Under the pieces are notes generated by a model, which was given only the letters and a program-made list of their open reading frames with translations, searched no databases and was not told the origin of the DNA. Below are positions 23,936 to 43,192 of a stretch of 64,000 bases of DNA, one piece after another. Source of the DNA: Geothrix paludis (GTDB lineage: Bacteria; Acidobacteriota; Holophagae; Holophagales; Holophagaceae); assembly GCF_022808815.1 (NCBI RefSeq), contig NZ_JAKZLC010000004.1, forward strand, positions 248,001 through 312,000, written 5' to 3'. The number at the start of each line of letters is the position of its first letter. The first letter of the stretch is position 1. Made by a program: the position numbers and the translations under genes.

Positions 23936-23973
23936 TGCTATGCGCGCTATGCTAGGCGCCGATGGGGGTTCCC

Positions 23974-25221
23974 ATGACCGGAGCCATGAACCTCTTCGAG
24001 AACGTGAACCGGCAGTTTGACGAGGCCGCGGACATCCTCCAGCTCTCCCAGGAGCTGCGGGAGCTGCTCAAGACGCCCTACCGCGAGATCACGGTGGCCA
24101 TGCCCATCCGCATGGAGGACGGGACGCTGCGCGTGTTCAAGGGCTACCGCGTGCAGCACAACGGCGTGCGCGGCCCCCAGAAGGGCGGCATCCGCTTCCA
24201 CCCGGATCTGGCCCTGGACGATGTGCGGGCCCTGGCCAGCCTCAACACCTGGAAGACCGCGGTGGTGAACATCCCCTTCGGCGGCGCCAAGGGGGGCATC
24301 CAGTGCGATCCCTCGAGGCTGTCCCTGCACGAGCTGGAGATGCTCACGCGCCGCTACATCTCCAAGATCTCCATGGTGCTGGGCCCCACCCGGGACATCA
24401 TCTCCCCCGACCTGAACACCAACGCCCAGATCATGGCCTGGGTCATGGACGAATACGGCCGGAAGAACGGTCACCAACCCGCCTGCGTGACCGGCAAGCC
24501 CCTGGAGCTGGGCGGCAGCCAGGGCCGCGAAGCCGCCACCGGCCGGGGAGTGGCCATCTGCGCGCGGGAGGCCTGGACCCGCGTGCTGGGCCGCGACCTG
24601 AAGGGCGCCCGGGTGATCCTCCAGGGCTTCGGCAACGTGGGCGGCCACAGCGCCCGGTTCCTCGCCGATATGGGCGCCCGCGTGGTGGCCGTGGCCGATC
24701 TGGGCGGCGCGGTCCGGCGCCAGGAGGGCCTGGACGTGACGGCCCTCCTGGCCCACGCGCGCCAGAATCGGGGCACCGTGGCCGGCTTCCCGGGCGGCGA
24801 GCCTTTCGATCGCGCTGAAATCTGGGCCCAGGAGGGCGACATCCTCATCCCCGCGGCCCTCGGGGGCGTGCTCACCGAAGCCACCGCTCCGACCGTGAAG
24901 GTCAGCCTCATCGTCGAGGGCGCCAACGCCCCCACCACCCCCGAGGCCGACCGGATCTTCCGGGAACGGGGCATCCTGGTGATGCCCGACATCCTGGCCA
25001 ACGCCGGGGGCGTCACCGTGTCCTACTTCGAGTGGGTGCAGAACCTCCAGCACCTCTTCTGGGAGGAGGCCGAGATCTTCGAGAAGGAGGAGAAGGTCCT
25101 GCTCCAGGCCTTCCGCGACGTCGAGGAGCAGGTGCACCGGCACCACTGCACCTGGCGCACCGGGGCCCTGGTCCTGGCCCTGGACCGCGTGCGGAAGGCC
25201 AACGAACTGAGGGGTTGGTAG
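23974..25221 (+). CDS. glutamate dehydrogenase (Glu/Leu/Phe/Val dehydrogenase family)
   Basis: About 415 residues. It oxidatively deaminates glutamate (or the reverse). GPQKGGIRFHP (near 69-79) carries the substrate lysine and NIPFGGAKGGI the catalytic-lysine region. The Rossmann domain has the fingerprint QGFGNVGGHSA. Three in-frame ATGs exist (23962, 23974, 23986); GGGGG at 23964-23968 best supports 23974. Its length and motifs fit the 415-residue NAD-type/clostridial-archaeal branch, distinct from the second copy at 38729. The two likely serve catabolic and anabolic roles respectively, by inference. Confidence 0.92.
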   Translation: MTGAMNLFENVNRQFDEAADILQLSQELRELLKTPYREITVAMPIRMEDGTLRVFKGYRVQHNGVRGPQKGGIRFHPDLALDDVRALASLNTWKTAVVNIPFGGAKGGIQCDPSRLSLHELEMLTRRYISKISMVLGPTRDIISPDLNTNAQIMAWVMDEYGRKNGHQPACVTGKPLELGGSQGREAATGRGVAICAREAWTRVLGRDLKGARVILQGFGNVGGHSARFLADMGARVVAVADLGGAVRRQEGLDVTALLAHARQNRGTVAGFPGGEPFDRAEIWAQEGDILIPAALGGVLTEATAPTVKVSLIVEGANAPTTPEADRIFRERGILVMPDILANAGGVTVSYFEWVQNLQHLFWEEAEIFEKEEKVLLQAFRDVEEQVHRHHCTWRTGALVLALDRVRKANELRGW

Positions 25222-38728: not shown

Positions 38729-40078
<1,350 letters not shown>

Positions 40079-40177: not shown

Positions 40178-43100
40178 ATGATCAGCCGCGACTTCAACGA
40201 GATCTTCCACAAGTACGCGACGGACAAGGAGATCTTCCACGAGCTCATGCCCCTGCGCACCCGGGAGATCCTCCTGGTGGCCCCGGCCTTCGACGCCTTC
40301 ACGCTGGAGCAGGACGGCCTGCTGACCGAGATCCTCTTCGACGGCTACTACCAGCTCAACATGAGCAACCCGCCCCGGGTGACCAACGTGTCCACGGTGG
40401 ACGAGGCCCTGGATCGCTGCGCCAGCCGCCACTTCGACATCATCATCGTCATGAGCCGCCTGGGCCAGGGCGGGCACGTGGAGCTGTCGCGGGCCCTGCG
40501 GAAGGCCGCGCCGCGGATCCCCATCTACCTGCTGCTCAACGACAACGTGGAAGTGGGCGTCATGGACCGCCGGCGCCAGGAGCTGCTGCGGCACTACGAC
40601 CAGATCTTCGTGTGGAACGGGAACCCCGAGATCTTCATGGCCATGGTGAAGTTCATGGAGGACCGGGCCAACGTCCTCAACGACACCAAGGTGGGCCTCA
40701 CCCGCGTGATCCTCCTGGTGGAGGACAGCATCCGCTACTACTCGCGGTACCTGCCCATCCTCTACAGCGAGATCCTCAAGCAGACCACGCGCCTGGCCAA
40801 GGAACAGAACATGGACCGCATGACGCGCACGCTGTCCATGCGCGTCCGCCCCAAGGTGATCCTGGCCACCTCGTACGAGGAGGCCATGGCCTTCTGCGAC
40901 CAGTTCCAGGACTGCCTGCTCTGCGTCATCTCGGACCGCAAGTTCCCCAAGGACGGCACCCTCGACCGCGAGGCCGGCATCAAGCTCATCCGCGCCCTGA
41001 AGGAGCGAATCCCGGACCTGCCGACCCTGCTCCAGTCCTCGGATCCGCTGAAGGAATCCTGGGCCACGGCCCTGGGCAGCGGCTTCCTCAACAAGAACTC
41101 GTTCACCCTGGGCGCGGAGCTTTCGAGCTTCTTCTACGAACGCCTGGGTTTCGGCGACTTCATCTTCCGGAACCAGGCCGGCGAGGAGATCGCCCGGGCC
41201 ACGGACATGGAGGACCTGCGGGAGAAGCTGCGCACCGTGCCCGCCGAGTCCCTGGTCTACCACGCCCTGCGCAACCACTTCTCCTCCTGGATCATGGCCC
41301 GCGGCGAGGTCCAGGTCGCCAAGGTCCTGGCCCGCTTCCGCATCTCGGACTACCGCGACCCCGAGGATATGCGCACCTTCCTCATCGACGTGGGCGACTA
41401 CGTGCAGCGCATGCGGACCCTGGGCAAGGTGATCCCCCTCACGGAATCGACGCCCAGAGACGAGCCCAACATCCTCCGCCTGGGCTCCGGCTCCATGGGA
41501 GGCAAGGCGCGGGGCGTGGCCTTCACCCACTCCCTGCTCTCCCGGCTGGACCTGGAGAGCCTGATCCCCGGCGCGAACATCCGGATTCCGCGCTCCGCCA
41601 TCATCGGCACGGAGGAGTTCACCGGTTTCATCCACCGGAACGGCCTGAGGCAGATGGTCCAGAGCGACGCCGACGACGACGCCATCAAGCGGCGCTTCCT
41701 CATGGGCTCCCTGTCGCCGGAGCTGATCGCCAAGCTGCGGCTCTTCCTCACCAAGCACGCCAAGGTGCCCCTGGCCGTGCGTTCCTCGGGCCTGCTGGAG
41801 GACAGCCTCTCCCATCCCTTCGCGGGCCTCTACAGCACCTTCTTCCTACCCAACAACGACGCCGATCCCGCCGTGCGCGAAGTCCAGCTCATGGAGGCCA
41901 TCAAGCTGGTCTACGCCTCGGTCTACTCGAAGGCCTCCCGCGCCTACTTCCAGGCCATCGACTACAAGATCGAAGAAGAGCAGATGGCCATCCTCATCCA
42001 GGAGGTCTCGGGACGCCGCTTCGGCAGCCGCTTCTACCCCCACATCTCCGGCGTGGCCCAGTCCTTCAACTACTACCCCGTGGCCTACACGCTGCCGCAG
42101 GACGGCATCGCCAGCATCGCCGTGGGGCTGGGCAAGTACGTGGTGGAGGGCGAGAAGGCCTACTGCTTCGCGCCGCCCTACCCCGAGATGGACATGCTGC
42201 CCCCCAGGGAGCAGCTGCGCACCACCCAGAAGCGCTTCTACGCCCTGGACATGAGCCGAACCTCCGTGGACCTCTACGCCGGGGAGGACGCCACCCTGCT
42301 CAGCCTCGACATCCAGGAGGCGGAGGCGGATGGGGCCCTGCAGCACTGCGCCTCCGTCTGGGACTGGAACGACGACCGCATCCAGGACGGCCTCGACCGC
42401 CCGGGGCCCCGCATCGTGAACTTCCGCAACATCCTCAAGTACGACCAGTTCCCCCTGGCCCCGATCCTCCAGCGGCTGCTGGAGCTGATCCGCGGGGCCA
42501 TGGAGACGCCCGTGGAGCTCGAGTTCGCCGTGAACCTCGACCCCGATCCCCACAACGGCAAGCCCACCTTCACCCTCCTCCAGATTAAGCACCAGCTCAT
42601 GGAGACGGGGGACGTGAACCTGTCCCCGGCGGACCTCGACCCGGCGGACCTCTTCCTCTTCTCCGAGAAGTGTGTGGGGAACGGCATCGTGGAGGGCCTG
42701 CGGGACGTCGTGTGGGTGGACCCCGAGGGCTTCGACAAGTTCGAGACGCCCGCCCTGGCGGCGGAGATCGAGAAGCTCAACGACCGCTTCCGCGCCGAGG
42801 GCGGGAAGTACGTCCTGCTGGGGCCCGGGCGCTGGGGCAGCAACGACCGCCACCTGGGCATCCCCATCGTGTGGTCCATGATCTCCTGCGCCCAAGTGAT
42901 CGTGGAGTACGCCATGGAGAACTTCCAGGCGGACGCCTCGTTGGGCTCGCACTTCTTCCACAACGTGACGTCCCTGAACATCGGCTACTTCACGGTGCCC
43001 TACCCCCGGGGCACGAGCCTCCTGGACTGGGACTGGCTGCGCCGGCAGCCGGAGGTCTGGCGCTCGGGCTGCCTGGTGCACACGCGGCTGGACGAGCCCG

Positions 43101-43192
43101 TCCACATCGTCATGGACGGCCGGCGCAGCGCCTCGGCCATCTTCAAGCGCGCGCCGGAGCCCGTGCCCGAGGAGCCGGAGGAGTTCCAGTAG
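40178..43192 (+). CDS. receiver-like / PEP-synthase N-terminal (PPDK_N) domain fusion protein
   Basis: 1004 residues. The first 350 contain two receiver-like alpha/beta regions; the second begins ILLVEDSIRYYSRYLP and has LLCVISDRKFP. From about 430 it matches the ATP-grasp nucleotide domain of PEP synthase/PPDK: SMGGKARG (about 437-444), and VRSSGLLEDSLSHPFAGLYS (from about 533). A later block GPGRWGSNDRHLG is near 885. The swivelling phosphohistidine domain and the PEP/pyruvate barrel are absent, so it cannot be a normal PEP synthase. Possibly a signalling or protein-phosphorylating ATP-grasp enzyme. ATG 40178 is chosen over an upstream start inside the terminator. Confidence 0.75.
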   Translation: MISRDFNEIFHKYATDKEIFHELMPLRTREILLVAPAFDAFTLEQDGLLTEILFDGYYQLNMSNPPRVTNVSTVDEALDRCASRHFDIIIVMSRLGQGGHVELSRALRKAAPRIPIYLLLNDNVEVGVMDRRRQELLRHYDQIFVWNGNPEIFMAMVKFMEDRANVLNDTKVGLTRVILLVEDSIRYYSRYLPILYSEILKQTTRLAKEQNMDRMTRTLSMRVRPKVILATSYEEAMAFCDQFQDCLLCVISDRKFPKDGTLDREAGIKLIRALKERIPDLPTLLQSSDPLKESWATALGSGFLNKNSFTLGAELSSFFYERLGFGDFIFRNQAGEEIARATDMEDLREKLRTVPAESLVYHALRNHFSSWIMARGEVQVAKVLARFRISDYRDPEDMRTFLIDVGDYVQRMRTLGKVIPLTESTPRDEPNILRLGSGSMGGKARGVAFTHSLLSRLDLESLIPGANIRIPRSAIIGTEEFTGFIHRNGLRQMVQSDADDDAIKRRFLMGSLSPELIAKLRLFLTKHAKVPLAVRSSGLLEDSLSHPFAGLYSTFFLPNNDADPAVREVQLMEAIKLVYASVYSKASRAYFQAIDYKIEEEQMAILIQEVSGRRFGSRFYPHISGVAQSFNYYPVAYTLPQDGIASIAVGLGKYVVEGEKAYCFAPPYPEMDMLPPREQLRTTQKRFYALDMSRTSVDLYAGEDATLLSLDIQEAEADGALQHCASVWDWNDDRIQDGLDRPGPRIVNFRNILKYDQFPLAPILQRLLELIRGAMETPVELEFAVNLDPDPHNGKPTFTLLQIKHQLMETGDVNLSPADLDPADLFLFSEKCVGNGIVEGLRDVVWVDPEGFDKFETPALAAEIEKLNDRFRAEGGKYVLLGPGRWGSNDRHLGIPIVWSMISCAQVIVEYAMENFQADASLGSHFFHNVTSLNIGYFTVPYPRGTSLLDWDWLRRQPEVWRSGCLVHTRLDEPVHIVMDGRRSASAIFKRAPEPVPEEPEEFQ

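Follow-up and report, generated by a model that had tools for sequence, protein, structure and literature searches.

The 64,000-nucleotide stretch of Geothrix paludis DNA analyzed here (the window) encodes a 1004-aa protein in which receiver domains are fused to an ATP-grasp domain and a new C-terminal domain. The protein belongs to an undescribed family that probably helps to switch glutamate dehydrogenase (GDH), an enzyme of nitrogen metabolism. Its domains occur in the order degenerate receiver, complete receiver, small helical domain, PPDK_N ATP-grasp and C-terminal domain (Table 1). The AlphaFold2 model has a mean pLDDT of 87.5, and a Foldseek search with it against the PDB returned PleD, which has two receivers, as the top match, followed by PPDK (1kbl). 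The initial annotation of this DNA had proposed a PPDK_N ATP-grasp domain fused to receivers, and Pfam, a PDB profile search and Foldseek together recover that architecture. Literature searches on PPDK_N with receivers, on DUF5752, and on GDH with a dikinase or ATP-grasp protein returned no description of the family.

The feature is real and widespread. Relatives of the 1004-aa protein occur in 35 of the 37 genomes of the genus searched (its own counted), mostly as nearly full-length copies with 80–100% identity alongside a few shorter pieces; one further genome contains only a 63-residue piece. Homologues that are 35–56% identical and align end to end come from many phyla, and the genome_contigs search yielded at least 594 encoded relatives. 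A search for viral relatives found none, and no second member of the family was detected in the G. paludis genome.

Table 1. Features of the gdhA and REC-REC-ATP-grasp locus (coordinates refer to the window)
Feature	Position	Strand	Basis
gdhA, NADP-type hexameric GDH	38729..40078	+	Pfam ELFV; NCBIfam NF006929, 715.9 bits (cut-off 536); adjacency
Inverted repeat, perfect over 19 bp, in the gap from gdhA to the REC-REC-ATP-grasp gene	40100..40141		Fold z-score -3.7
REC-REC-ATP-grasp-C-terminal-domain protein, 1004 aa	40178..43192	+	Uninterrupted ORF, ATG at 40178
Receiver-like domain 1, residues ~29-165, degenerate	40262..40672	+	Pfam Response_reg 61-119; model secondary structure; conservation; Foldseek PleD
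Receiver domain 2, residues ~175-325, complete	40700..41152	+	Conservation in 88 homologues; model; Pfam Response_reg in homologues
Small helical domain, residues ~335-415, YHA..NHFS.W motif	41180..41422	+	Weak DUF5752 match; model
PPDK_N ATP-grasp, residues ~430-812; K443, R535, E601, E780/E782, Q802, K804	41465..42613	+	Pfam E 2e-31; conservation
Conserved C-terminal domain, residues ~820-990; GPGRWG 882-887, D890, E910, GSHFFHN 923-929	42635..43147	+	Model pLDDT 91; conservation

The ATP-grasp assignment is secure by Pfam, which places PPDK_N (PF01326) at residues 440–805 with 109.8 bits against a cut-off of 27. The motifs initially read as a retained nucleotide-binding block, SMGGKARG and VRSSGLLEDS, both fall within this domain and prove to be strongly conserved, with K443, R535, S536 and S537 invariant in 88 homologues. 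Moreover, K443, R535, E601, E782 and Q802 are conserved in both the receiver-bearing family and a receiver-less sister family described below. Assignment to catalytic positions was by motif (GGK, VRS, E-x-EFA and LQ-x-K/R) and is therefore tentative; the hhalign alignment to the organism's own PPDK was too weak for this purpose. By this mapping, K443, R535, E782 and Q802 presumably correspond to K22, R92, E323 and Q335 of PPDK, and E780 and K804 stand in place of residues we take to be its Asp321 and Arg337, both conservative changes. With its catalytic residues conserved and the replacements conservative, the ATP site looks active.

This domain and its catalytic residues are what the family has in common with PEP synthase and PPDK (PF01326). 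It differs from them in having neither the swivel domain nor the TIM barrel, in carrying receivers N-terminal to the ATP-grasp and a new domain C-terminal to it, and in its link to GDH. Pfam detected no phosphohistidine domain (PF00391) at E<=1 in the 1004-aa protein or in ten relatives, and no PEP/pyruvate-binding barrel (PF02896) in the protein. These absences had been noted from the sequence, along with the consequence that the protein cannot carry out PEP synthesis, and we concur: with two of the three catalytic domains absent, PEP synthesis was rejected as its function. We also considered a His domain hidden in the C-terminus, where LGIPV resembles the motif that follows the PPDK catalytic His, but Foldseek with the domain model gave no swivel-domain match and thus no support for it. 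The earlier statement that the protein lacks the rest of PEP synthase thus holds for the His and PEP/pyruvate domains, but not in the sense of an empty C-terminus, which is occupied by a conserved new domain.

This C-terminal domain is modeled as an alpha/beta domain of ~170 residues, not a TIM barrel. Its near-invariant motifs follow the pattern GPGRWG...D...GIP...E...SxGxHFFxN, and the receiver-bearing and receiver-less subfamilies both retain R885, D890, G894, E910, G923, H925 and F926; H925 is the sole His among its residues listed as conserved in both. The domain has no Pfam family, no convincing sequence relative in the PDB and, by Foldseek at E<=0.001, no PDB fold match to its model. 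It occurs in one copy in the G. paludis genome and represents a new structural target.

At the N-terminus, the Pfam Response_reg match in the 1004-aa protein itself is weak and falls in receiver 1 (E 4e-4). A PDB profile search matched response regulators, and Pfam Response_reg covers the receiver 2 region in two homologues (L055 and L104). Together with the Foldseek match to PleD, these results confirm the two receiver-like regions described from the sequence. Receiver 1 lacks the acidic pair and a phosphorylatable Asp at the expected strand ends and has an invariant Trp (Trp146) at the usual Lys position. Receiver 2 retains E182 (88/88 homologues), D183 (76/88), D253 (86/88), S287 (88/88) and K306 (86/88), and is the one receiver in which the response-regulator set of acidic pair, Asp, Ser/Thr and Lys is complete; conservation and the structural model place the Asp and Lys (D253 and K306) in receiver 2 and neither in receiver 1. 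The protein thus apparently combines one working receiver with one pseudo-receiver, and receiver 2 may be phosphorylated. Retention of the receiver 2 residues in almost every homologue makes the signal control suggested by the initial annotation plausible. A clustering of ORFs from 101 loci brought out no histidine kinase as a conserved neighbor; an unlinked kinase is possible. The small helical domain that follows matches DUF5752 weakly in this protein and above the Pfam cut-off in homologue L104.

Receiver input followed by enzymatic output is also the plan of PleD (REC-REC-GGDEF) and PorX (REC-PglZ), both of which appeared in the fold search. PleD is similar, too, in pairing one working with one degenerate receiver; in the family protein, the degenerate one is receiver 1. 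The output of the family differs from that of either protein, consisting of an ATP-grasp domain and an undescribed domain.

The family gene begins 99 bases after the end of gdhA, and each of the 25 Geothrix-genus loci has GDH as its immediate upstream neighbor. Across the 101 clustered loci, GDH is the one dominant neighbor. Among 53 fully flanked homologous loci from the genome_contigs search, 29 encode GDH within 5 kb, compared with ~0.3 expected; because the loci are related to one another, the binomial figure for this linkage is too small. Loci with GDH within 5 kb, fully flanked or not, derive from 11 named phyla, with the caveat that one such locus is from a Thermoplasmatota MAG in which a binning error is possible. 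Four arrangements of GDH and the family gene (FAM) were found: GDH>FAM>, FAM>GDH>, <GDH FAM> and FAM> <GDH. Since it spans many phyla and all four arrangements, the link was re-made or kept through rearrangement, and descent from a single ancestral locus would not by itself easily account for such a spread.

The association is not universal, as about half of the homologous loci have no GDH nearby. In an evenly drawn sample of Bacteroidales, 103 of 119 genomes carry the family, and 100 of these 103 encode a family-I GDH. GDH lies within 6 kb of the family gene in at least 41 of the 103, a lower bound also because of contig ends. Another 13 of the 119 genomes have GDH and lack the family at the threshold used, so the family is not strictly required for GDH. 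From these genomic comparisons we regard the GDH link as well supported and infer the chemistry. The phosphotransferase initially proposed had an unknown acceptor; the gene-neighborhood survey now provides GDH as a strong candidate partner.

Paralogues extend this association. Many Bacteroidales have two adjacent copies of the family gene, each beside its own GDH clade: GDHs that accompany the second copy group together in a single clade, and GDHs encoded divergently from the first copy branch at other positions in the tree. Tree distances of linked family–GDH pairs correlate (r 0.54; 0/2000 permutations), a correlation that partly reflects shared ancestry. The receiver-less sister family is ~27–32% identical to the receiver-bearing family, and a search of 149 Acidobacteriota genomes for such paralogues found 30 loci, 19 of which encode GDH within 1.5-kb flanks (16 archaeal-type and 3 family-I type). 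Across homologues, N-termini vary on a constant ATP-grasp/C-terminal core, as is typical of a regulator. Both receiver-bearing and receiver-less versions retain the link, and they do so with two GDH types, suggesting that the core works on or together with GDH; the strongest argument for this reading is that GDH remains in company with the core despite variation in both input region and GDH type. In one receiver-less locus (L041:2392-9301), the paralogue shares a strand with three different Glu/Leu/Phe/Val dehydrogenase genes that flank it. Another receiver-less paralogue (L045:4252-7512) has a C-terminal nucleotidyltransferase (NTP_transf_2) domain, which is suggestive of a second nucleotide-transfer activity.

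The ORF clustering found no conserved neighbors other than GDH and korAB, which encodes a 2-oxoacid:ferredoxin oxidoreductase for which 2-oxoglutarate would fit as substrate. In some Bacteroidales loci, L064, L086 and L079 among them, korA, korB, the first copy, the second copy and gdh lie in that order on one strand. Immediately upstream of the family gene, and in the same orientation, the korA-korB pair was observed in L064, L065, L068, L076, L078, L079, L083, L086, L089, L092, L099 and L116, all from Bacteroidota and Chlorobiota.

We put at about even the chance that the family is a dedicated, signal-controlled, ATP-dependent regulator, whether modifier or activator, of the GDH encoded by the adjacent gene. 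D253 would be phosphorylated by an unlinked histidine kinase, and the resulting change in the REC-REC pair would switch the ATP-grasp domain. The ATP-grasp domain would then consume ATP to modify or remodel GDH, a step in which H925 of the C-terminal domain possibly takes part, and in this way control how fast or in which direction ammonia is assimilated at the 2-oxoglutarate/glutamate node. Receiver-less paralogues would act on GDH in the same way with other N-terminal input regions. Domains, residues and linkage are the basis from which we infer D253 phosphorylation, ATP turnover, GDH as the target and any role of H925. Counting against this reading are the loci with no GDH nearby, the Bacteroidales genomes that have GDH but lack the family, the absence of a kinase among the conserved neighbors and the terminator-like hairpin between the two genes in Geothrix; the GDH of E. 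coli, moreover, works without such a partner. A more specific possibility, which we consider unlikely, is that the receiver-controlled ATP-grasp domain would be a protein kinase or pyrophosphotransferase in which the phosphohistidine domain has given way to the new C-terminal domain, which would hand phosphate on to GDH, perhaps by using His925 as its carrier.

The protein might instead be a receiver-regulated ATP-grasp kinase or ligase that belongs to the same pathway as GDH but does not act on it, its substrate being a small molecule (glutamate or 2-oxoglutarate, for example) that GDH and the 2-oxoacid oxidoreductase make or use. This is doubtful but possible. An intact ATP-grasp domain is joined to a second conserved domain that could supply a substrate site through its invariant G, R, W, D, E and H residues, korAB is the second neighbor, and other PPDK_N enzymes use small molecules. 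The latter include, among the ncbifam matches, PEP synthase and, ranked after it, rifampin phosphotransferase and the prodigiosin ligases PigC and RedH, which have PPDK_N in common with the family. Rifampin phosphotransferase and PigC/RedH retain the His domain and have drugs or pyrroles as substrates, and the 1004-aa protein scores far under the corresponding cut-offs (12.2 bits against 999 for rifamycin phosphotransferase; 41.9 against 1300 for PigC). However, the lack of conserved neighbors besides GDH and korAB indicates no wider pathway, no known product suggests itself, and a link maintained across two GDH types and both versions of the protein better suits a GDH-specific partner.

The linkage evidence would also fit a catalytically weak or dead ATP-grasp scaffold that activates or inhibits GDH allosterically and non-covalently, according to ATP binding and receiver state. 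The normal phosphoacceptor domain has been lost, and receivers commonly act through dimerization; conservation of K443, R535, E601, E782 and Q802 in both subfamilies nonetheless argues for retained catalysis, and we think a scaffold quite improbable. A split PEP synthase, in which phosphoryl transfer proceeds to a stand-alone phosphohistidine protein encoded elsewhere, would account for the fact that PPDK_N-family ATP-grasp domains normally need a His domain. In the G. paludis genome (96.7% complete), however, the only PF00391 domain found by Pfam lies inside PPDK. With no separate His-domain protein detected there, we rejected this candidate as very improbable.

Hexameric GDH occupies a central place in nitrogen and carbon metabolism, and to our knowledge the switching of its activity is poorly understood in many anaerobes, gut Bacteroidales included. 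If the GDH-regulator reading is correct, the family would constitute a general GDH control system in at least 11 phyla, with interchangeable inputs on a constant ATP-using core and a role comparable to adenylylation of glutamine synthetase. Under the kinase or pyrophosphotransferase reading, it would amount to a general and hitherto undescribed means of switching ammonia assimilation post-translationally, conserved in more than 10 phyla. By its title, a 1996 report of Baggio and Morrison (cited in PMC4539542) attributes dependence of Bacteroides thetaiotaomicron GDH activity to trans-acting gene(s) downstream of gdhA. These gene(s), as that title describes them, resemble the family in lying near gdhA and affecting GDH activity, and belong to the order in which most sampled genomes carry the family. 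The family may offer a directly testable candidate for the trans-acting gene, a match we treat as a lead only.

In Geothrix, the gap between gdhA and the family gene contains a hairpin whose 19-bp repeat is flanked by runs of A and T and resembles an intrinsic terminator on both strands. In 22 of 25 Geothrix-genus loci, the gap holds a repeat of 12 bp or more whose stem varies in sequence but still pairs. A promoter and terminator consensus scan of the gap found nothing, though the hairpin is plain in the sequence. Given this terminator-like element, the two genes do not form a simple operon in Geothrix and may be transcribed separately or joined by read-through. The G. paludis genome also encodes a second Glu/Leu/Phe/Val dehydrogenase (419 aa; window 23962-25221), ~15 kb upstream, and a third on another contig, each without its own family copy alongside.
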